Positions 23,924 through 32,100 of a DNA stretch of 59,338 bases are shown here, piece by piece. A model generated the notes under the pieces. The model saw only the letters and a program-made list of their open reading frames with translations. It was not told where the DNA came from and did no database searches. Each line of letters begins with the position of its first letter. Position 1 is the first letter of the stretch. This DNA comes from Ignavibacteria bacterium RIFOXYB12_FULL_35_14. GTDB lineage: Bacteria; Bacteroidota; Ignavibacteria; Ignavibacteriales; Ignavibacteriaceae. The stretch is from positions 1 to 59,338 of the forward strand of contig MHAR01000076.1 of NCBI GenBank assembly GCA_001803045.1, written 5' to 3'. The position numbers and the translations under genes are program-made.

Positions 23924-25009
23924 TTAATTTCTGGATAATTGTTGCTGGTCAATATCCCTTTTTCTGATTTTCGACAATGTTTCATACGAGTAAGCAAGTA
24001 TTGATGTTATAATAGTAATTACTAAAAACCAAACCGCTAAAGCAAATTCGTTTTGGGTCTGAAAAATTGCAGTTGCGATATTACCTATTAACAGCCACTG
24101 GAAAACATAAACCGATGTAACATTCTTTCCCAGCCACTTTACATAAATCAAAAAAGAGTTTTTACCACAGAAATTTTCCAATTTATCCAAACTAAACGTT
24201 AACAGAATTAAGAATTGAAAAATCCATAATGTATATAACCAATTATGATGGTAATAATTTCTCAAATCTGACGCAGCATCAATTCCATAAGTGAAAGCCG
24301 AAAATGTTATTGCTGCTGATAGTAAAGCAAAAAAATCTCCTATATCCTCTCCAAGGTTAAATTGTTCTAAAATGATTCTATATAAAAACCCTACCAAAGG
24401 ATAAACTGCCCATGGAAAAAGGGGGAAATAAGACCACTCAATGTTTCCCCACAGAAATGCTTGAACATATACAAGAATCTGATTATTTGTTCGATGGTCA
24501 ACTGAGATACTATGAAAGATTAAGATGAAGATTAAGATTAAGAGTGAAATGATTGAGGTAGTGTAAAAACTATTACTGGATATTTTTTTTATGATAGAAA
24601 TCAGAATTATGCTAAGTCCTGCAAGAGGCAAAATATCGGCTCCGAAGATATATCTAAATGGATTGGCTTGAACTTTACCAATAAAAATTAAGATTAAAAA
24701 ATGAAAATTAAGCCCGATGTTTAGAAGAATTCCGCCTAGAATAAGAATTAAACTGCGTTTAAGATTTTGCGAAAAGCTTTTTTTTGACACTGCTAAGAAG
24801 TAACCCATCACAGCCATAAATAAGGGTGCTGCAGGTGGTCCTCCAAGAAAGAGAAATATTTTTCCAAGCAAACTTTGATTGATTTCCGGTTTCGCGAATA
24901 ATTCTATCAAATGAACTTGAATCATCATCAATATTGCAAATCCTTTTAGCAAATCTGCAGTTTGATATCTTTCTTGCGGATATAGCTGCTTAAATTTCTT
25001 GAAGATCAT
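23924..25009 (-). CDS. Polytopic membrane acyltransferase (HGSNAT/DUF1624- or acyltransferase-3-like)
   Basis: The 361-residue protein has about ten hydrophobic segments and an N-terminal signature RYQTADLLKGFAILMMIQVHLIE, which resembles the catalytic His-bearing start of DUF1624/heparan-alpha-glucosaminide acetyltransferase and related membrane acyltransferases. It should move an acyl group across or at the inner membrane onto a sugar or peptide. It is the last gene of the operon and overlaps the barrel-protein stop by 4 bases. The substrate is unknown. Confidence 0.78.
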   Translation of the reverse strand: MIFKKFKQLYPQERYQTADLLKGFAILMMIQVHLIELFAKPEINQSLLGKIFLFLGGPPAAPLFMAVMGYFLAVSKKSFSQNLKRSLILILGGILLNIGLNFHFLILIFIGKVQANPFRYIFGADILPLAGLSIILISIIKKISSNSFYTTSIISLLILIFILIFHSISVDHRTNNQILVYVQAFLWGNIEWSYFPLFPWAVYPLVGFLYRIILEQFNLGEDIGDFFALLSAAITFSAFTYGIDAASDLRNYYHHNWLYTLWIFQFLILLTFSLDKLENFCGKNSFLIYVKWLGKNVTSVYVFQWLLIGNIATAIFQTQNEFALAVWFLVITIITSILAYSYETLSKIRKRDIDQQQLSRN

Positions 25010-25830
25010 TTGGCAATTTGGAAATTTCCTTTTATACCTGCATACAAATAATCAACATTGAAGTCTGTGAATTTATTATGCTGATAACCTGCTATTACAT
25101 TAAATAGCGCTAATAGAGAATATTCAACCTGTCCAAAAGCCTGATACTTTTGTACATAATTTTGATTGAAGATTGTTAGCAAATCAGAATCAAAATAAAA
25201 AGCTCTCTCGCCGGCAAATCCACCAACTTTTAGGAGAAAATCTGCAATTGGAGCGTAATGCAGCTTTAATGAAGCTGAAAAAAGATTTTTTCCATTATCA
25301 AGCCGTGTAAAGTTTGGTTTTACTGAAATAAAAAATTCATTTGATAGAATTCTTTCTAGTCTTACGGTAACTTGATTTGAAGCTGCTTTAGCAAAACCAA
25401 TTTGGTTGAGGTGAGTGTATGCCGCCCCCAAATAAAACCAATCTACATAATAAACCAGGTCAATGTTATAAAGATTAGTATAGTCGTTAAAGGAAAATGA
25501 AAAGGGCTTATAATCAAAATCACCCTTATAGTGTGCATAACTAAACTTTATGTAATAAGGAAAAAGATCAACAATGCCGCCGGCCAAGAATGTTTGCTGT
25601 TTATAATCATATTCCTTATCATCAATCAGCAGGTGGTCATAGTGATTAATTAGATAAAATTCTTTGATTAATTGCAGTGTATTGTAAAACGATATGGAGT
25701 TGGACTTTACGCTCGTCGAGTAATTCCCATTTGTAAAGTAGACAGATGGACTTAAATACAAAGTCTCATACGAATATTGAGCAAACGTCAAGGATGCTGT
25801 GAAGATAAAAAGGAGAAAAAATCTTTTCAT
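25006..25830 (-). CDS. Probable outer-membrane beta-barrel protein
   Basis: This 274-residue protein has a signal peptide (MKRFFLLFIFTASLTFAQ). It then shows alternating hydrophobic and polar residues rich in Tyr and Phe, with even spacing typical of barrel strands (for example FYLGAAYTHLNQIGFA and FGQVEYSLLALFNVIAGYQH). It resembles YaiO-like barrels in size and style, but I cannot assign a family. Four-base overlaps with the TPR gene before it and the acyltransferase after it tie it to the unusual operon, where it may be the outer-membrane exit or anchor. Confidence 0.7.
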   Translation of the reverse strand: MKRFFLLFIFTASLTFAQYSYETLYLSPSVYFTNGNYSTSVKSNSISFYNTLQLIKEFYLINHYDHLLIDDKEYDYKQQTFLAGGIVDLFPYYIKFSYAHYKGDFDYKPFSFSFNDYTNLYNIDLVYYVDWFYLGAAYTHLNQIGFAKAASNQVTVRLERILSNEFFISVKPNFTRLDNGKNLFSASLKLHYAPIADFLLKVGGFAGERAFYFDSDLLTIFNQNYVQKYQAFGQVEYSLLALFNVIAGYQHNKFTDFNVDYLYAGIKGNFQIAK

Positions 25831-26462
25831 TGGATCAACTTTAATCCTTCTTCAGCAAGGGAATCGCTTTCATTAAGCATGAGAGCTTGTGTTAAAAGCA
25901 TCTTGGCTTTATCCTTATTCCCTAAATAATAGTAAGTCCAACCTAAAGAGAGGTTTGGTTCATAATAGCTTGGGAATGAGGTGAATGCGATCTCAAGATA
26001 TTTCTTGGCGTTGTTATAATCGGCATTTTGTAGATAGATCTGCCCGAGGCGAAGATTTGCAGTGTAATCCATTGCATCTAATTTAAGAATATCAAAATAC
26101 AGTTCTTTTATTTTGTCCCATTCATTTTTTGCTGAGAGGGGAAGAGTCAGCCCAAGTTTTGCTTCAATGCTTTTAGGATTGATTATTACTGCTTCAGAGT
26201 AATATTCTTTTGACTTTGAATAATCCTTTTTCTGATAATAAAGCCAGCCAAGTCGAATATTGATTAAATAATTTTCCTTGTTAGAAGCATAAATTGACCT
26301 TAAAGATTCTATTGCCTTATCTATGTTTTTATTGTTCTCATGCTTAATAGATTCATTGAATGATTTTACTTTCTCGTCTGGTGTTCTTGAATTTAGGTTA
26401 ATTGCAAAGAACAATAATATCATGGTAATGAATGCTGTACTTATGGCTGCGAATTTTTTCAT
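25827..26462 (-). CDS. Tetratricopeptide-repeat protein with N-terminal signal/anchor
   Basis: The protein begins MKKFAAISTAFITMILLFFAI, a signal peptide or membrane anchor. At least four TPR units follow, with the marks LGWLYYQKKDYSKSKEYY, LRLGQIYLQNADYNNAKKYLE and LGWTYYYLGNKDKAKMLL. I chose 26462 because an AAGGAG lies 6 bases upstream; the ATG at 26477 would place that site inside the gene. TPR proteins serve as docking scaffolds. It sits between the UT-M23 fusion and the barrel protein and probably acts in the periplasm. Confidence 0.82.
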   Translation of the reverse strand: MKKFAAISTAFITMILLFFAINLNSRTPDEKVKSFNESIKHENNKNIDKAIESLRSIYASNKENYLINIRLGWLYYQKKDYSKSKEYYSEAVIINPKSIEAKLGLTLPLSAKNEWDKIKELYFDILKLDAMDYTANLRLGQIYLQNADYNNAKKYLEIAFTSFPSYYEPNLSLGWTYYYLGNKDKAKMLLTQALMLNESDSLAEEGLKLIQ

Positions 26463-26468
26463 GTCGCT

Positions 26469-26474
26469 CTCCTT
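26469..26474 (-). promoter_or_regulatory. Shine-Dalgarno site that fixes the TPR gene start
   Basis: AAGGAG on the minus strand lies 6 bases before the ATG at 26462. It favours that start over the ATG at 26477. Confidence 0.7.
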
Positions 26475-28600
26475 CATTTTGTTTTTGTTGCTTTAAATAA
26501 AAGGTTTTTATCGCCGTTTATTTCAAATTCTTTAAGTCCATCATGTTCATCAATTTTTACAATTCCATTAAATTGTTTTTTGTAAAAAGCAAATAACCCG
26601 CTGCCCATAACTATAATATCGGATTTTATAAAATAATTTTGTGTCTCCTCATCTTCTTCAAACGTAAACTCTCCTCTGGTACTTAGCATATTCTTATAGA
26701 AAAGAAAAATCTCCGCTAGATATCGTATAGATCCAATAGGCAAAAGAGAAATAGAAAAAGTATCATCCCAATATAAATCCTCTTGAAAGCATAAAGGAAC
26801 TTGAGCTGCCACAAGATAGAAAAAATAAAGTGCAGTATTCTTTTCGCCAATATATGAAGTAAAATAAAAAACTTTATCGGTTAAATAAATTTCTGCTTTA
26901 GCATTACTTGATGATTCGATATAAAGTTGATTATAAATATCTACTTTAACTTCCCAGCTTTCTTCGAGTTCTTTGCCTTCTAACTCGTATTTAAAATTGA
27001 GTTTATCTCCAATCTTAAAATCAAAAGCATCTTTAATAGTTTTATGAACGTCCAAGTTTTGTGCAATTGAATTTTCTTTGGGATACGCAAAGGTTCGCAG
27101 GTACGTCTTGCCATTTTCCTTCTCAATAAAATGAGAAATTGGAAAAAGATGAGTCTTATCCCCAATCTTATCGTTAAGCTGAAATTGAAAATGAATATGG
27201 GGGTAAGGTGACCGCCCACTGTTGCCGCAATTCCCAATTATGTCTCCCTTTTTAATTTTGTCTCCTTCTTTTACTTTTATTGAATCGGATTTGAGATGAG
27301 AGATTGAACTGAATAATCCGTACTGATGAGAAATGATAATAGTATTCCCAAAATTTTGTTGAAGATTAATATCACCTGGTTCATTATCCCGAACACTCGA
27401 TACTATTCGAACAATTTCACCATCAAGAGGGGAAGTAACGGGCAGGCTGTAACAATAGTAATCTTCTAATTTAAGTCCCTCATTAGAATATTGGGAATTA
27501 TTTTTATCGACTACTACAAAATCCAACGCATACTTCCAATCATCTTTGTGGGTGTGTTCACCATTAAATCCTTGAGATACTTTCCACTCACCAAAGAATG
27601 GTAATTCCGGAAAAAGATATTTGAAGTTCTCGAAGCGTGCTTTTCTTTTTTGATGATAATAAAAATTTTCTTCTGGTGAACCGGGTTTAAAATACAGCAG
27701 CACAAGGTCAGTTTGATCCTTCCTGAATTTTAGACTGTAGATAGTTGCAAGCACTATAAAATTAAAAGGGAGAACCAATAGCGGAAATAAACTTCCGCTT
27801 AGCAGCCGGGAAAAGAATCCCGTAAAGATCACCACCATTAGAGAGGATAAAATAACCAGCATAAAGCTTTTTCGTGATGGTATGATTAAGCTGCCTCCAA
27901 GGGCAAATGCAGCTAAAATTGAATTAAAGCTCGATAAAATTAAAAGATTATCGAAATGATTTGGAAGAATAAAATTTAGAAGTAAGACATTCAGCACAAA
28001 AGCAACAATGCTAAGAACGAACAACACTCGTGAAAAAATTAAGATTGCAACTATGATGATTATTCCCGCAGTGATTTCTGGTTGAAAAATTATTAGGGAA
28101 AGTGATTTAAAGTAAATCTCCATATAATAAGTAAGCGATGATGATGTGCTGTCGACCCCGTACTGATGAATATTCGGAATGATAAAATTGTAGTTCGTTA
28201 AAAAAATCACAAATATGTAAACACTAATAACAAACGGAAGACTTAAGCCCGGTAAATTAAAGGCAGTTTCTAGGTAATGTTCGAGTACCGCCGAAATTAA
28301 AAATGTTATAATTATAAATATCGGAATGAGCAGCAGCAATAAATTATTAAGCTCGAAATAAAAGGCGGTTGAAGCGCCGAAGAGTATTCCATTAAAACCG
28401 TAAAAACCGCTTCTAATTTTTTCCGCGTCAAACTTTAGAATGTAGGCGACAAGGTTTGAAATTAAAACTCCAAGCAGAGCCATCAAACCAAGCAAGGGAG
28501 TTGAGAAAGAGGCGACCAATATGGCTGCACCAAACCATTTTCTGTTTGAAAAGAAAATCTGAGCGTAAGAATATAAAGTAGAATCTAAAAAAAACTGCAT
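26474..28600 (-). CDS. Urea-transporter-like membrane domain fused to an M23 metallopeptidase
   Basis: Residues 1-295 form a urea-transporter (UT) domain with two homologous halves: GFYGFNGILFGAS (65-77) and SSFNSILAAFALGG (223-236), plus LFPLLVLPFNF (271-281). Residues 330-490 form an M23/LytM domain with the zinc-ligand pattern His 349/351...Asp 360 and PHIHFQ (His 468, His 470), and the lysostaphin-like VKEGDKIKKGDIIG. About 220 C-terminal residues have no recognised domain. The fusion joins a small-solute channel to a cell-wall hydrolase fold. It is co-transcribed with the decarboxylase (8-base gap) and the TPR gene. Confidence 0.85.
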   Translation of the reverse strand: MQFFLDSTLYSYAQIFFSNRKWFGAAILVASFSTPLLGLMALLGVLISNLVAYILKFDAEKIRSGFYGFNGILFGASTAFYFELNNLLLLLIPIFIIITFLISAVLEHYLETAFNLPGLSLPFVISVYIFVIFLTNYNFIIPNIHQYGVDSTSSSLTYYMEIYFKSLSLIIFQPEITAGIIIIVAILIFSRVLFVLSIVAFVLNVLLLNFILPNHFDNLLILSSFNSILAAFALGGSLIIPSRKSFMLVILSSLMVVIFTGFFSRLLSGSLFPLLVLPFNFIVLATIYSLKFRKDQTDLVLLYFKPGSPEENFYYHQKRKARFENFKYLFPELPFFGEWKVSQGFNGEHTHKDDWKYALDFVVVDKNNSQYSNEGLKLEDYYCYSLPVTSPLDGEIVRIVSSVRDNEPGDINLQQNFGNTIIISHQYGLFSSISHLKSDSIKVKEGDKIKKGDIIGNCGNSGRSPYPHIHFQFQLNDKIGDKTHLFPISHFIEKENGKTYLRTFAYPKENSIAQNLDVHKTIKDAFDFKIGDKLNFKYELEGKELEESWEVKVDIYNQLYIESSSNAKAEIYLTDKVFYFTSYIGEKNTALYFFYLVAAQVPLCFQEDLYWDDTFSISLLPIGSIRYLAEIFLFYKNMLSTRGEFTFEEDEETQNYFIKSDIIVMGSGLFAFYKKQFNGIVKIDEHDGLKEFEINGDKNLLFKATKTK

Positions 28601-28608
28601 TAGAAATT

Positions 28609-29964
28609 CTACTTTAGCTTTAGTTGTTTTGGAAGCAGTTCGCGGTCGAGGATGTAATTCAAAGCCTCAGATTTTCGTATCAATTCAACTGTGCCGTCCT
28701 GCATTATCATAACAACGTTTGGACGCATAGTTATAAATTGCATCCACTGAGTCATAGCATAAGCCCCGACATCTTCAATTACTAAATGCTCGCCTTTCTT
28801 AACGGCGGGAAGCAAAATACTTTCGCGTATGAGATCAATGTTCATACATAAAGGACCATATAGGGAAGAATCTTCAACATGTACACCGCTCTCCTGAGCA
28901 GGTGAAATTTTATGCTTGTACCAAAAGCTTGTAAAAAGAATATTGACTCCTGCATCAATTATAATTGCTCTTCTGCCGGTTGATAATCTCTTATTTGCAA
29001 GAACAGTAGTTATCAAATAACCCGCATTGTCTACTAATGCTCTTCCGGTTTCAAGAATTAGAGCCGGTAAGTCGCTGCCTGTTGCATTCATTTCAAACAT
29101 TCCCGATGAGATTGCATCTGCGTATTGTTCCATTGAAGGGATAATCTGTTCTGCAGGAAGATATTGACCAATTAAAGTATTGTTTGAAGCAAACCCGCCG
29201 CCCATATCAATATAATCTAATTTGATATCGAATTCTCTTTTTATACTGTTTGCTAAGGAAGCAAGCTTAGATGCGGCAATTCTATATGCCTCTGCTGTCA
29301 TCATGTACGTACCAATGTGAGTGTGAAGACCGGTAAGTTTTAGACTTTTCTCGGACATAATTCTTTTAATTGCCTGCCATGCTTCACCATTTTCATAATT
29401 AAAGCCAAATCTATCCCAGAGGGGATAAACACCAACATCCATGTTAACGCGTATGGCGACATTTGCTTTTAGATTTTCGGAGTTACAAAGATCAATAATC
29501 TCATATAGCTCATCAAAGTGATCAATGTGAATCTTAGCATTATCCTTTATTGCTTTTTGAAGAGCGGCTCTGCTTTTGTCTGGCCCATTAAAAATTATGT
29601 TTGATCCTTTTATGCCGAGCAGTTTCGCTTTATCGTATTCAAACTCAGAAACCACTTCTGCAAGTGATCCTTCTTGATGGAAGACAGAACATACTGCATT
29701 CAAATAATTTGTTTTGTATGACCAGGCAAACTGAACTTTGGGGTATCTGGTTCTAAAAATTCTTATTGCATTTTGCTGGTTGTTTCTCAACTGCCGTTCA
29801 CTCATTACAAATAACGGCGAACCATACTCTTCGACAAGCTTTGAAACAGCAACTTCGTCGATTGAGGTTTTTGCTTTTGCGGATGGACCGCTTCCGAATT
29901 TATTCATCAACCCAGATTGATATTTGGTTATGATCGGTCTTTCATATCTTTTTTTTGTGCTCAT
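28609..29964 (-). CDS. Fold-type III PLP decarboxylase (diaminopimelate/ornithine decarboxylase family)
   Basis: The 451-residue protein has the PLP Lys in AWSYKTNYL (Lys 84), the barrel motif GLHTHIGTYM (about 212-221), the phosphate-binding YIDMGGGF and the LETGRALV segment. In LysA the substrate motif near the C-terminal Cys reads CES; here it reads CMNID (Cys 373), so the substrate probably is not meso-diaminopimelate. It overlaps the ATP-grasp gene by 4 bases. It should decarboxylate or racemise an amino acid, either free or carrier-bound. It is not likely to be the housekeeping lysA. Confidence 0.85.
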   Translation of the reverse strand: MSTKKRYERPIITKYQSGLMNKFGSGPSAKAKTSIDEVAVSKLVEEYGSPLFVMSERQLRNNQQNAIRIFRTRYPKVQFAWSYKTNYLNAVCSVFHQEGSLAEVVSEFEYDKAKLLGIKGSNIIFNGPDKSRAALQKAIKDNAKIHIDHFDELYEIIDLCNSENLKANVAIRVNMDVGVYPLWDRFGFNYENGEAWQAIKRIMSEKSLKLTGLHTHIGTYMMTAEAYRIAASKLASLANSIKREFDIKLDYIDMGGGFASNNTLIGQYLPAEQIIPSMEQYADAISSGMFEMNATGSDLPALILETGRALVDNAGYLITTVLANKRLSTGRRAIIIDAGVNILFTSFWYKHKISPAQESGVHVEDSSLYGPLCMNIDLIRESILLPAVKKGEHLVIEDVGAYAMTQWMQFITMRPNVVMIMQDGTVELIRKSEALNYILDRELLPKQLKLK

Positions 29965-31001
29965 ATTGATATTTCTCCAATAGCTGCAATTTGTTCAAAT
30001 GTTTTAATATCACTTATTAAATCCCAAGAGCTTCTAACGAAAATTGTTCCTACCTTGAATGAAGAAAATGTTTCCACAGATTCACCATAAGCAAGCTTAA
30101 CAAGCGCATAAGGCATGTTTTGTCCGGCTGATGGTGCAAGATAAACCCAGGCGGGAAATCTTGGATTTATTTCAAGCAGGAAATATTCTCCTGTTTCGGA
30201 TGATTTTATGTATTCAAGCTCAAGCCCACTTTTCCATTTTGTTTTTTCAATAATTTTTTTTGACAGGTCAATTATTGTTTTATCATCTATAGTTATGCCT
30301 GCCCAGCCCTTTCCTTTATCTGTTATGTACAGTTTCCGCATCGGAACCGCACCGACTGTTCTGCCTGTTCCATCACCTAATCCAACAACATTAAATTCAT
30401 CTCCCTTTAAATATTCTTGAATTATGATTGGGTAGCCCCATTTTGCTGACAATTTATTGAATGAATGTTCTGCTTCTTCAAAATTATTTACGATGTAAGC
30501 TTCGTAAAAAATTCCTTTTACAACAGCGGGGTATTTTATTTTTGATGATAGTAAATAAAGATCGTGAAGAGAGGAAACCAAAAAGTTTTTAGGAACTTTG
30601 ATTTGATTATCCTCGCAAAATTTGAAAAGATTATCTTTGGCACGGATATTCAATTGTTCAAGAGTTGGCAGAAATAGTTTTATTCCCATTTGATTAAGCT
30701 TTGGCTGCAGTTTAACAAATCCGTAAAGTTCAGAATCGAGCGTAGGAATAATAAGGTCTAACTTTTCCTTTTCATGAATAAGTTTAATTCTTTCAAGTAG
30801 TGGTTCTAAGCCACCCGAGGGGTAAGGTATTATGTAAGCCTTTTCAACTAATCCTTCCATGTAAATACCGGGGTCGAGTGAATCGTATGCTAACCCAATT
30901 ATACTGCCTTGAAAATCTTTTGCCATTTTTAAACTTCTTATGACCGGAACCCCTGGACCCGGATTATCAGTGGCGTTTAAACCGGTTACTGCTATTTTCA
31001 T
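29961..31001 (-). CDS. ATP-grasp ligase (carbamoyl-phosphate-synthase-like fold)
   Basis: The 346-residue protein has a pre-ATP-grasp N-terminus (MKIAVTGLNATDNPGPG), ATP-binding segments YPAVVKGIFYEAYIV and IIIQEYLKGDEFNVVG, and the metal-binding LEYIKSSETGEYFLLEINPRFPAW. ATP-grasp enzymes of this type form amide bonds through acyl-phosphates. It lies directly after a PqqD-like protein (4-base overlap) and before a decarboxylase. A role in joining an amino acid to a peptide or other amine is plausible but not proven. Confidence 0.85.
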   Translation of the reverse strand: MKIAVTGLNATDNPGPGVPVIRSLKMAKDFQGSIIGLAYDSLDPGIYMEGLVEKAYIIPYPSGGLEPLLERIKLIHEKEKLDLIIPTLDSELYGFVKLQPKLNQMGIKLFLPTLEQLNIRAKDNLFKFCEDNQIKVPKNFLVSSLHDLYLLSSKIKYPAVVKGIFYEAYIVNNFEEAEHSFNKLSAKWGYPIIIQEYLKGDEFNVVGLGDGTGRTVGAVPMRKLYITDKGKGWAGITIDDKTIIDLSKKIIEKTKWKSGLELEYIKSSETGEYFLLEINPRFPAWVYLAPSAGQNMPYALVKLAYGESVETFSSFKVGTIFVRSSWDLISDIKTFEQIAAIGEISI

Positions 31002-31252
31002 GCTTCTTTTAGAATGGAATAATGTTTGAGTTGTGAGATAAAATCAGCGAAATCTTTATGCGCAGTTGCTTTGTCAATATCATAATCATTTACAATTGAA
31101 TTGATTATTTCTTCTTCAGAAGATTTTGATCGGATTAGATTAAATATTTCTTTCCCGATTTGGTTTAAGGTGAATGTCTCACCTGTTCCTGCGAGAAATA
31201 AAAAACCGGACTCGCTGATTGCAATATTTTCTGGAATTATAAAATTAACCAT
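30998..31252 (-). CDS. PqqD-like peptide-chaperone/recognition protein
   Basis: The 84-residue protein matches the PqqD/RRE winged-helix pattern: an N-terminal strand region, then TLNQIGKEIFNLI, a helix SSEEEIINSIVNDYDIDKATAHKDFADFI and a C-terminal ILKE. In known systems such domains hold a leader peptide for a modifying enzyme. No precursor peptide is evident directly beside it. The 4-base overlap with the ATP-grasp gene suggests it works with that enzyme. The T9SS gene upstream ends 17 bases before its start. Confidence 0.82.
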   Translation of the reverse strand: MVNFIIPENIAISESGFLFLAGTGETFTLNQIGKEIFNLIRSKSSEEEIINSIVNDYDIDKATAHKDFADFISQLKHYSILKEA

Positions 31253-31269
31253 GGTTTGACTCTTAAATA

Positions 31270-32100
31270 TTATCTCAATAAAATCATTTTTCGTACCTCG
31301 GTGTTCGCACTTGAATTTAGTTGATAGACATACACACCACTTGGCTGCTTAATTCCTTTATCATTAGTTCCATCCCATATAATTTCATTTTCTCCCGTAA
31401 TTTTTACATCAGTTTCTATTGTTTTAATTAGTTCGCCTTTGATATCAAATATTTTTACCTGTACAGAACCGTCAGGGATATTAAACTTTATTGTTGTAGA
31501 AGGATTAAACGGATTGGGGAAATTTTGGTATAGTTGAAATTGGTTTGGGGTGTTTAATTCCCCAATGCCACTTACGGGGGTTGAATAAACTTCAATATTA
31601 TAACCGTTAAAAAATGGATAATCAAATTTCGAGATAATACATTCCTTTAGCCCATCATTGTTTACATCAAGAAGTGTTGGATATGAAAAATAAAAACTGG
31701 GTTCGTTTCTTTCTAATATCACCTGGTTTGTTGAAACATCAAAAACTTTCACTGTTTGTCTATACGGTGAACTCCCGTAGTATGCAAGAACGTAAAAATC
31801 CATGATTCCATTACCGTTCAGATCACCTCCTATTGCATATAATTGTAAACCGGCTAACTTTTCATTTTGATTAAAAGTGTAAGTGTATTGAGGAGTCACA
31901 GAAAAACCATCGGTCATAATTCGAAAAGAAGAGGAATCGAGCTGATAAATTCTCTTTTTCCAGGTATCGCTGGCTTTTTCAAAATCAACCCAACCCGATA
32001 TAGTATAGTAATTTATCTGTGAGGAGTTCCAAATTAAATTAACCTGAGAAAAAGCTATCTGTGAAGTTAGAAGCATGGTAATAAGAATGAAACGTAACAT
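31270..32100 (-). CDS. Secreted protein with T9SS C-terminal domain
   Basis: I prefer the ATG at 32100, which starts a signal peptide (MLRFILITMLLTSQIAFSQ); the frame extends to 32124. The mature protein has FG-GAP/integrin-like calcium loops (GDLNGNGIMDFYVLAY, LLDVNNDGLKECI). It ends in a T9SS/FlgD tail (LYQNFPNPFNPSTTIKF, GVYVYQL, MILLR). It is probably surface-exposed. It lies 17 bases upstream of the PqqD-like gene and may be the first gene of that operon. Confidence 0.85.
   Translation of the reverse strand: MLRFILITMLLTSQIAFSQVNLIWNSSQINYYTISGWVDFEKASDTWKKRIYQLDSSSFRIMTDGFSVTPQYTYTFNQNEKLAGLQLYAIGGDLNGNGIMDFYVLAYYGSSPYRQTVKVFDVSTNQVILERNEPSFYFSYPTLLDVNNDGLKECIISKFDYPFFNGYNIEVYSTPVSGIGELNTPNQFQLYQNFPNPFNPSTTIKFNIPDGSVQVKIFDIKGELIKTIETDVKITGENEIIWDGTNDKGIKQPSGVYVYQLNSSANTEVRKMILLR

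Follow-up and report, generated by a model that had tools for sequence, protein, structure and literature searches.

A PqqD-family protein and a decarboxylase with a leader-like tail in a conserved six-gene operon of an Ignavibacteria genome

Introduction

What does a leader-recognition protein bind when no family of precursor peptides is found near its gene? This question is raised by a compact minus-strand operon at positions 23924-31252 of contig MHAR01000076.1 from Ignavibacteria bacterium RIFOXYB12_FULL_35_14 (assembly GCA_001803045.1; the window is the whole stretch of 59,338 nucleotides that was analysed). Its seven genes encode a PqqD-family protein, an ATP-grasp ligase, a decarboxylase dependent on pyridoxal 5'-phosphate (PLP), a fusion of a urea-transporter-fold channel with an M23 peptidase (UT-M23), a tetratricopeptide repeat (TPR) protein, a predicted outer-membrane barrel and a membrane acyltransferase. 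A sequence-only reading had suggested that the first three make a modified peptide or amino-acid product, and that the others process and export it through the envelope. We find that six of these families form a conserved unit, and that the decarboxylase itself carries at its N-terminus a motif of the kind bound by recognition elements (RREs) of ribosomally synthesised and post-translationally modified peptides (RiPPs). The best explanation of the whole, to which we give about an even chance, is a six-gene biosynthesis and export system in which the RRE grips the decarboxylase's own tail. The conserved set, the tail motif and its predicted disorder, the ligand residues of the RRE, a covariation of Tyr with Asp and the M23 residues were all computed. 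The features on which the argument turns are these:

30998-31252, minus strand: PqqD-family RRE protein, 84 aa (Pfam PqqD, 1.2e-12; PDB profile matches TbiB1, 2.6e-12, and TfuB1, 3.3e-9)
29961-31001, minus strand: ATP-grasp ligase, 346 aa, ATPgrasp_Ter / carbamoyl-phosphate-synthase-like (Pfam ATPgrasp_Ter, 4.5e-11)
28609-29964, minus strand: fold-III PLP decarboxylase, 451 aa (Pfam Orn_Arg_deC_N, 8.4e-31; nearest solved relative 7kh2, FslC)
29893-29946, minus strand: leader-like tail motif of the decarboxylase, residues 7-24, YERPIITKYQSGLMNKFG (within tail residues 1-27, predicted disordered)

Results

The decarboxylase tail and the PqqD protein

The N-terminal tail of the decarboxylase carries the motif [YWF]xxPx[ILV]x5GxxNK[FY]G, and its first half is the motif by which lasso-peptide RREs recognise their leaders. 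In a profile alignment of the tail that covered 156 of 159 non-identical rows, the first position was Tyr in 116 rows, Trp in 25, Phe in 13 and Leu in 2, Pro was present in 156 of 156, and the sixth position was Ile (120), Leu (29), Val (6) or Phe (1); in the second half, Gly was found in 144 rows, Asn in 131, Lys in 153, Phe or Tyr in 137 and 11, respectively, and the final Gly in 152. The AlphaFold2 model gives residues 1-27 a predicted local distance difference test (pLDDT) score below 50, with block means of 93-94 for residues 31-80. The FslC alignment begins only at profile column 27, and the genome's own LysA-type homologue lacks the tail. The full motif occurred in none of 630 non-core open reading frames (ORFs) of at least 150 residues, and the short motif within the first 40 residues of 19 of the 630. 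The enzyme behind the tail matches 7kh2 (N-citrylornithine decarboxylase, FslC) at 7.7e-86 and in fold, and scores under the NCBIfam cut-offs for both FslC (243.8 of 500 bits) and LysA (236 of 297.9 bits). Among 18 decarboxylases, K84, H214, E305, R308, C373 and Y402 are invariant; we take these to be the PLP lysine and active-site residues.

Judged by its residues, the PqqD protein is an RRE of the leader-recognition type that keeps the leader-binding positions. The sequence-only reading had already called it leader-recognition-type, and this is borne out by its closest solved structures, TbiB1 and TfuB1, both of which, according to passages of PMC13381572, were solved with leader peptides. 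The same passages report that discrete lasso RREs bind [Y/W]xxPx[L/V/I/F/A] and that, in LppB, D70 makes a hydrogen bond to the leader Tyr, while N33 holds the kink at Pro in place and F74 packs against that Pro, complex formation being almost abolished by N33A and reduced by D70A. Residues N30, I36, D67, F71 and L75 of the window protein align with LppB N33, C39, D70, F74 and M78 (ungapped, E 0.036; chain numbering set by eye on V35, C39, D70, F74 and M78). In an alignment of 19 PqqD proteins, N30, I36, D67, F71, L75 and S13 were nearly invariant and A11, G16, F17, F19 and G24 invariant; over 159 rows, position 30 was Asn in 157 and F71 was kept in 148. The word 'decarboxylase' does not occur in the main text of a structure-based RRE survey, excerpts of which map YxxP-type motifs on precursors (PMC12710340).

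Covariation of the tail with PqqD residue 67

Comparison of tail residue 1 with PqqD residue 67 over 158 rows gave 115 pairs of Tyr with Asp, one of Tyr with Asn, 14 of Phe and two of Leu with another residue, and none of Phe or Leu with Asp. Residue 67 was something other than Asp in one of the 116 rows with Tyr, in seven of the 26 with Trp and in all 16 with Phe or Leu, these 16 representing 15 genomes or handles (L111 and L173 are one genome, and two rows come from L102), other near-copies remaining. The rows of L102 (Trp) and L109 (Phe) were set by hand, and L172 (the genome of L109) and L204 (a fragment without the tail) were dropped. Eight Phe-tail rows carry Tyr at PqqD 67. The pairing of Tyr with Asp fits the chemistry, because Tyr offers a hydroxyl to Asp and Phe does not.

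Fisher's test on an earlier set of 67 rows gave 1.9e-9, a value that ignores kinship and includes one mis-set row. By mutual information (MI) with average product correction (APC), calculated from 156 PqqD-decarboxylase pairs (effective number 109.5), the pair of PqqD 67 and tail residue 1 ranked third among 7004 pairs of columns between the two proteins; when MI was divided by joint entropy it ranked first, and each of the two columns was the other's best MI partner. On trees built without the tail columns, 3 of 3 independent pairs were concordant in the first tree, and in the second, with two supported pairs, 1.5 were concordant on average and 0 discordant. The covariation is, in our view, good evidence for a contact between tail and PqqD protein, strong but not statistically closed, and short of proof.

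Search for a separate precursor peptide

A modified peptide as a separate molecule, one of the products suggested earlier, found no support. Among 5014 small frames of 20 to 120 codons lying no more than 2 kb from the core in 189 loci, no family that bears the leader motif recurred, and it is the decarboxylase that holds a leader-like motif. The short motif occurred in 227 of these frames, 34 of which have a relative in another locus, and frame families found in five or more loci had at most two members with the motif (at most 2 of 8). A narrower first scan, which took stop-to-stop frames of 45 codons or more at 31 loci, yielded nine frames, PqqD itself among them. A separate precursor near the loci was rejected because no motif-bearing family recurs within 2 kb of the core. 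No leader peptidase B2 or cyclase C was noticed when the neighbour gene lists were read by eye, no family search having been made. The likeness to lasso systems (TbiB1, TfuB1/FusB1, LppB) extends to the PqqD family, the N30, D67 and F71 equivalents and the motif [Y/W]xxPx[L/V/I/F/A], whereas here the motif lies on a 451-residue decarboxylase and no precursor, leader peptidase or cyclase was seen adjoining. PEARL and other scaffold-peptide pathways are similar in that a ribosomal peptide carries the substrate for enzymes, but the tail described here is N-terminal and fused to an enzyme.

Conservation of the six-family unit

The conserved unit consists of six families: PqqD, ATP-grasp, PLP decarboxylase, UT-M23, TPR and outer-membrane barrel. 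Their genes follow one another in this recurring order, and the unit is found again in the phylum of the window and in two other phylum sets, one gammaproteobacterial and one verrucomicrobial. The sequence-only reading had put forward seven families for conservation together; six are kept across phyla, while the acyltransferase and an upstream cargo gene of the type IX secretion system (T9SS) are lineage additions. In counts over loci located via PqqD, UT-M23 or the decarboxylase, some genomes being represented by repeat fetches, all 165 loci that extend far enough upstream had ATP-grasp and PqqD on the decarboxylase strand, all 86 that extend far enough downstream had UT-M23 on that strand, and TPR was there in 42 of 47.

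A UT-M23 search of named genome contigs gave 31 loci from Ignavibacteria, other Bacteroidota-type genomes, one gammaproteobacterial and one verrucomicrobial record; in one of them (L031) the match is confined to an M23 stretch. A phylum sample of 296 genomes gave this PqqD type at E < 1e-16 at 27 sites, spread over 26 genomes, and it was found at E 1e-13 in 12 of 244 genomes, 75 of 395 (a class in the window's phylum) and 1 of 98 (the class of G005). In a class sample of 149 genomes, 24 had long UT-M23 matches (E < 1e-130), as counted from the match list, and matches at E 1e-40 occurred in 36 of 299 genomes of the gammaproteobacterial phylum sample and 4 of 194 of another phylum sample; the decarboxylase was found at E 1e-90 in 5 of 288 genomes. 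The order-level sample of G386 was a single genome. Of the 36 gammaproteobacterial-sample genomes with UT-M23, 31 were used, each for the stretch around its match, with G549, G557, G558, G577 and G603 left out.

Of the 104 loci found through PqqD (L034-L059 without L036, L132-L138, L140-L169 and L175-L216), 102 have ATP-grasp and 97 a decarboxylase match of more than 60 bits within the stretch covered; five of the seven without such a match carry ATP-grasp and stop at or near the expected decarboxylase start. L048 has a 49-bit decarboxylase match, L148 continues for about 400 further bases without a match, and of the two others, L059 has ATP-grasp and decarboxylase farther off (L072) and L216 is an orphan PqqD. 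Among 70 loci found through UT-M23 (L001-L030 and L092-L131), the decarboxylase was present in 66 and ATP-grasp with PqqD in 64; four of the six without the latter are short or at a contig end (L013, L017, L020 and L022). Clustering of non-core ORFs of at least 90 residues from 69 loci of at least 9 kb, as a search for an extra conserved neighbour, gave three clusters of any size. One, from 21 loci and at no constant distance, looks by eye like signalling-type proteins; the second, also from 21 loci, is barrel-like, and the third, from 13, TPR-plus-barrel-like. The remaining clusters span 4-6 loci each.

No published account of the gene set turned up among the papers listed by searches of the open-licence PMC literature, and one may exist elsewhere. 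The parts belong to known families; the enzyme-directed leader recognition, the UT-M23 fusion and the six-gene unit appear to be new. Identity as an anti-phage defence system was rejected, PADLOC having given zero families for five of the seven operon proteins at E 0.01.

The channel-peptidase fusion

26474-28600, minus strand: UT-M23 fusion, 708 aa (Pfam UT, 1.8e-46, and M23, 3.1e-15; model pLDDT 87)
27647-28600, minus strand: urea-transporter-fold channel domain, residues 1-318 (dvUT 3k3f, Z 37.5; second-half urea filter not kept)
27086-27622, minus strand: M23/LytM peptidase domain, residues 327-505 (H351, D360, H435, H468 and H470 kept; predicted cytoplasmic)
26477-27085, minus strand: C-terminal beta-rich domain, residues 506-708 (predicted structure)

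Residues 1-318 of the model superimpose on dvUT (3k3f) with a root-mean-square deviation of 2.0 over 303 aligned residues, so that the entire channel fold of the urea transporters (dvUT, UT-B) is present; unlike them, the protein is fused to an M23 and a beta domain, and the equivalents of Glu187 and Thr294 are mostly replaced. With the urea-filter numbering taken from excerpts of PMC4357013 (Thr130, Glu187 and Thr294 of dvUT; Gln for Glu187 in UT-A2), 75 of 82 sequences have Ser at the position of Thr130 and 5 have Thr; at that of Glu187 they have Leu (24), Ser (21), Ala (20), Gly (4), Gln (4) or others (L169 in the window), and at that of Thr294 Val in 26, Ser in 22, Ala in 21 or Thr in 13 (V276 in the window). 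Since the Glu187 and Thr294 places are mostly replaced, the solute of the channel domain is probably not urea.

Residues ~327-505 match LytM-type peptidases at Z of about 12-14, with a fold like those of DipM, ShyA and lysostaphin, and all 82 distinct sequences retain H351, D360, H435, H468 and H470; presumably these are the zinc ligands and the catalytic His. The C-terminal beta domain (~200 residues) had no fold match of its own among the matches listed for the whole protein, which barely cover it. Counts of Lys and Arg under the positive-inside rule, with loop sides resting on the UT topology and our reading of the model helices, fit an N-in/C-in orientation in 76 of 82 sequences and the opposite in 3, with 3 tied. 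Were this topology correct, both the M23 and the beta domain would lie on the cytoplasmic side, and on this pattern we consider a cytoplasmic M23 domain probable. Envelope processing by M23 is then not required, and the earlier proposal that the peptidase acts in the envelope loses ground.

Known pathways with an ATP-grasp enzyme and a decarboxylase

ATP-grasp ligases couple an activated carboxylate to an amine, and fold-III decarboxylases act on free, acylated or carrier-bound amino acids. In butirosin biosynthesis a carrier is charged with an amino acid by an ATP-grasp ligase, and BtrK decarboxylates the carrier-bound amino acid; in vibrioferrin biosynthesis PvsA is the ATP-grasp enzyme and PvsE the decarboxylase. 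The operon resembles the BtrI/BtrJ/BtrK system in its ATP-grasp ligase adjoining a fold-III PLP decarboxylase, but has an RRE in place of a recurrent acyl carrier protein gene: no acyl carrier protein was noticed in recurrent neighbours of at least 90 residues or in recurrent small frames, no search with a carrier-protein model having been made. It resembles the siderophore type in that FslC is the nearest solved decarboxylase and in the pairing of ATP-grasp enzyme and decarboxylase, as in PvsA-PvsE, but no synthetase of the kind independent of non-ribosomal peptide synthetases and no siderophore transporter was noticed in recurrent neighbours. A siderophore operon was rejected as no such synthetase or receptor was noticed, PvsA and PvsE being compared by role. 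The ATP-grasp protein of the window is closest to ATPgrasp_Ter and carbamoyl-phosphate-synthase-like ligases, and BtrK is among the structural and profile matches of the decarboxylase; according to portions of PMC4431377 and PMC2922099, BtrJ-like enzymes cluster, among ATP-grasp enzymes, with the carbamoyl-phosphate-synthase clade, and BtrK is a PLP decarboxylase. The combination of ATP-grasp enzyme, decarboxylase and export proposed earlier remains plausible.

Discussion

Proposed mechanism

The ligand of the RRE would be the disordered decarboxylase tail ([YWF]xxPx[ILV]), not a free precursor, bound as lasso leaders are; on the motif, the kept residues and their covariation, we consider it likely that the RRE binds this tail. 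Such a grip would keep the ATP-grasp ligase and the decarboxylase together. The two enzymes probably share one pathway, in which ATP-grasp may make an amide-bonded amino-acid intermediate that the decarboxylase would turn into an amine. We favour an RRE-organised pair of ligase and decarboxylase because no carrier protein was noticed while an RRE and a tail are present. The small product would leave through the urea-transporter-fold channel, at the entrance of which, probably on the cytoplasmic side, the M23 domain would sit, and would then cross the outer envelope by way of the barrel and TPR proteins; for the direction of transport we lean towards export over uptake. If the PqqD protein does grip the tail, RiPP-style leader recognition also organises ordinary small-molecule enzymes, PqqD genes without an evident precursor would be explained, and the motif should be sought on a neighbouring enzyme. 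The system is frequent (75 of 395 genomes by PqqD and 36 of 299 by UT-M23 in the samples above), and the reading predicts a channel with an M23 peptidase on its cytoplasmic side.

Several observations weigh against this reading. Three loci (L109-L111) keep [FL]xxPx[LI] but lack NKFG, and Trp at tail residue 1 occurs with another residue than Asp67 in 7 rows, against 19 with Asp. Switches between Tyr and Phe or Leu are few, three in one tree and four in the other (two of them forced by supported branches), on average 0.5 of 2 independent pairs show no PqqD difference (L170, Tyr with Asn), and a sign test cannot reach 0.05 because independent switches are too few. Two PqqD-decarboxylase column pairs outscore the pair of PqqD 67 and tail residue 1 by APC-corrected MI, with no structural meaning known to us. 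As to the unit, L099 and L100 have UT-M23 and a TPR match but no biosynthetic genes in 16-18 kb, the PqqD match of L072 sits apart from ATP-grasp, about 2 kb upstream, and a TPR match is absent from 5 of 47 testable loci. Lastly, fusions of PqqD to a TetR-like regulator suggest regulation as an alternative role.

Alternative explanations

These fusions would fit a docking model in which PqqD-tail binding senses the level or state of the enzyme and controls expression, as the fused proteins would do directly. They account for 16 of the 30 loci with a PqqD match in the gammaproteobacterial set (29 genomes); the frame of 265-280 codons is TetR-like with the PqqD domain at its C-terminus, TetR_N exceeded the Pfam cut-off in 2 of 3 tested, and no unfused relative of the TetR part was found in the loci examined at E 1e-4. 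In Bacteroidota-type loci, by contrast, PqqD is free-standing (~80-85 residues, no DNA-binding domain) and lies directly before ATP-grasp in nearly all, and we hold regulation to be quite improbable as the explanation. The chances are poorer still for a true RiPP whose distant, unlinked precursor is the main ligand, the decarboxylase tail mimicking the leader so as to recruit the enzyme: PqqD is of the RRE type and leader-guided enzymes are usual, but no recurrent candidate frame lies within 2 kb of the core in the 189 loci.

The tail could also be a carrier, a swinging arm on whose NKFG Lys the ATP-grasp enzyme loads an amino acid for the decarboxylase to act on while tethered, after which the M23 domain, lying in the cytoplasm, would cleave the amide next to the channel entrance, much as in BtrI/BtrJ/BtrK but with the arm presented by an RRE. 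The Lys kept in 153 of 156 aligned tails agrees with this, as do the action of decarboxylases of this fold on carrier-bound or acylated amino acids (FslC nearest, BtrK a further match) and the M23 residues kept in 82 of 82 sequences of a probably cytoplasmic domain; yet 3 of the 156 rows, and L109, have no such Lys, and we know of no M23 enzyme that releases carrier-bound substrates. We judge the carrier tail unlikely, and somewhat more doubtful its full course, in which an enzyme-borne, RRE-presented arm is loaded on lysine, its cargo is decarboxylated by the same polypeptide and the M23 amidase frees the product into the pore for export. Envelope remodelling, with an inverted topology or an exported M23 domain cutting peptidoglycan and a channel moving urea or another small amide, draws on M23 being usually a wall enzyme and on the fold matches to DipM, ShyA and lysostaphin, but runs against the positive-inside pattern and the replaced filter, with Leu, Ser or Ala mostly at the Glu187 place (Gln in 4 of 82) and Val 26, Ser 22, Ala 21 and Thr 13 at the Thr294 place; it seems improbable to us.

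Operon layout, lineage additions and locus variants

25827-26477, minus strand: TPR protein, 216 aa, N-terminal hydrophobic segment by eye (Pfam TPR; conserved in the unit)
25006-25830, minus strand: predicted outer-membrane barrel, 274 aa, with signal peptide (barrel and signal by eye; look and position)
23924-25009, minus strand: membrane acyltransferase, lineage addition (Pfam Acyl_transf_3/HGSNAT)
31270-32100 (ATG start) or 32124 (TTG start), minus strand: T9SS cargo, FG-GAP and Por_Secre_tail, lineage addition (Pfam)

ORF calls verified the minus-strand run of seven genes at 23924-31252 much as it had been described, with an 8-base gap between decarboxylase and UT-M23, 4-base overlaps at the five other junctions, and 17 bases from the end of the cargo gene to the PqqD start. 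The family labels given earlier agree with Pfam and NCBIfam scans except for the barrel gene, which had zero matches in either up to E 0.1 and owes its label to appearance and place only. Barrel homologues are present in Ignavibacteria-type loci, and other lineages have positional equivalents: a TPR-plus-barrel-like gene of ~400-450 residues in Bacteroidia-type loci (13 loci), and a ~300-residue gene in gammaproteobacterial-set loci (a 21-locus cluster that also holds L073).

The acyltransferase and the cargo lie outside the core. The acyltransferase occurs in 2 of the 31 UT-M23-found loci, L001 (same strand) and L003 (other strand), and in a second locus set at L041 and L039, on the other strand, L039 appearing to be the L003 contig. 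In 13 of the 31 loci the gene immediately before PqqD is a cargo homologue (partial, at a contig start, in L007 and L011), and further loci of a second set have one upstream as well; the retention of this short FG-GAP T9SS cargo hints at a lineage-specific surface partner.

Among the variants, L109, L110 and L111 are a diverged form whose PqqD lacks Asp67 and which gave no TPR or barrel match by BLAST; L109 has a forkhead-associated-like gene upstream (by eye). The TetR-PqqD fusions, which stand before ATP-grasp, are those of L092, L093, L095-L097, L107, L108, L112, L113, L115, L116, L119-L122 and L125. In L072 (1813-5971), UT-M23, a tailed decarboxylase and ATP-grasp are adjacent, and the UT-M23 frame, of 535 codons, ends before the C-terminal beta domain. 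The UT-M23 genes of L099 (8468-10654) and L100 (6374-8584) have a CHASE2-like sensor gene nearby (by eye). An orphan PqqD relative lies at 2256-2534 of L216, in a genome (G1110) that also has an operon-type PqqD, and L025 and L105 are two diverged operon copies in one genome (G382).

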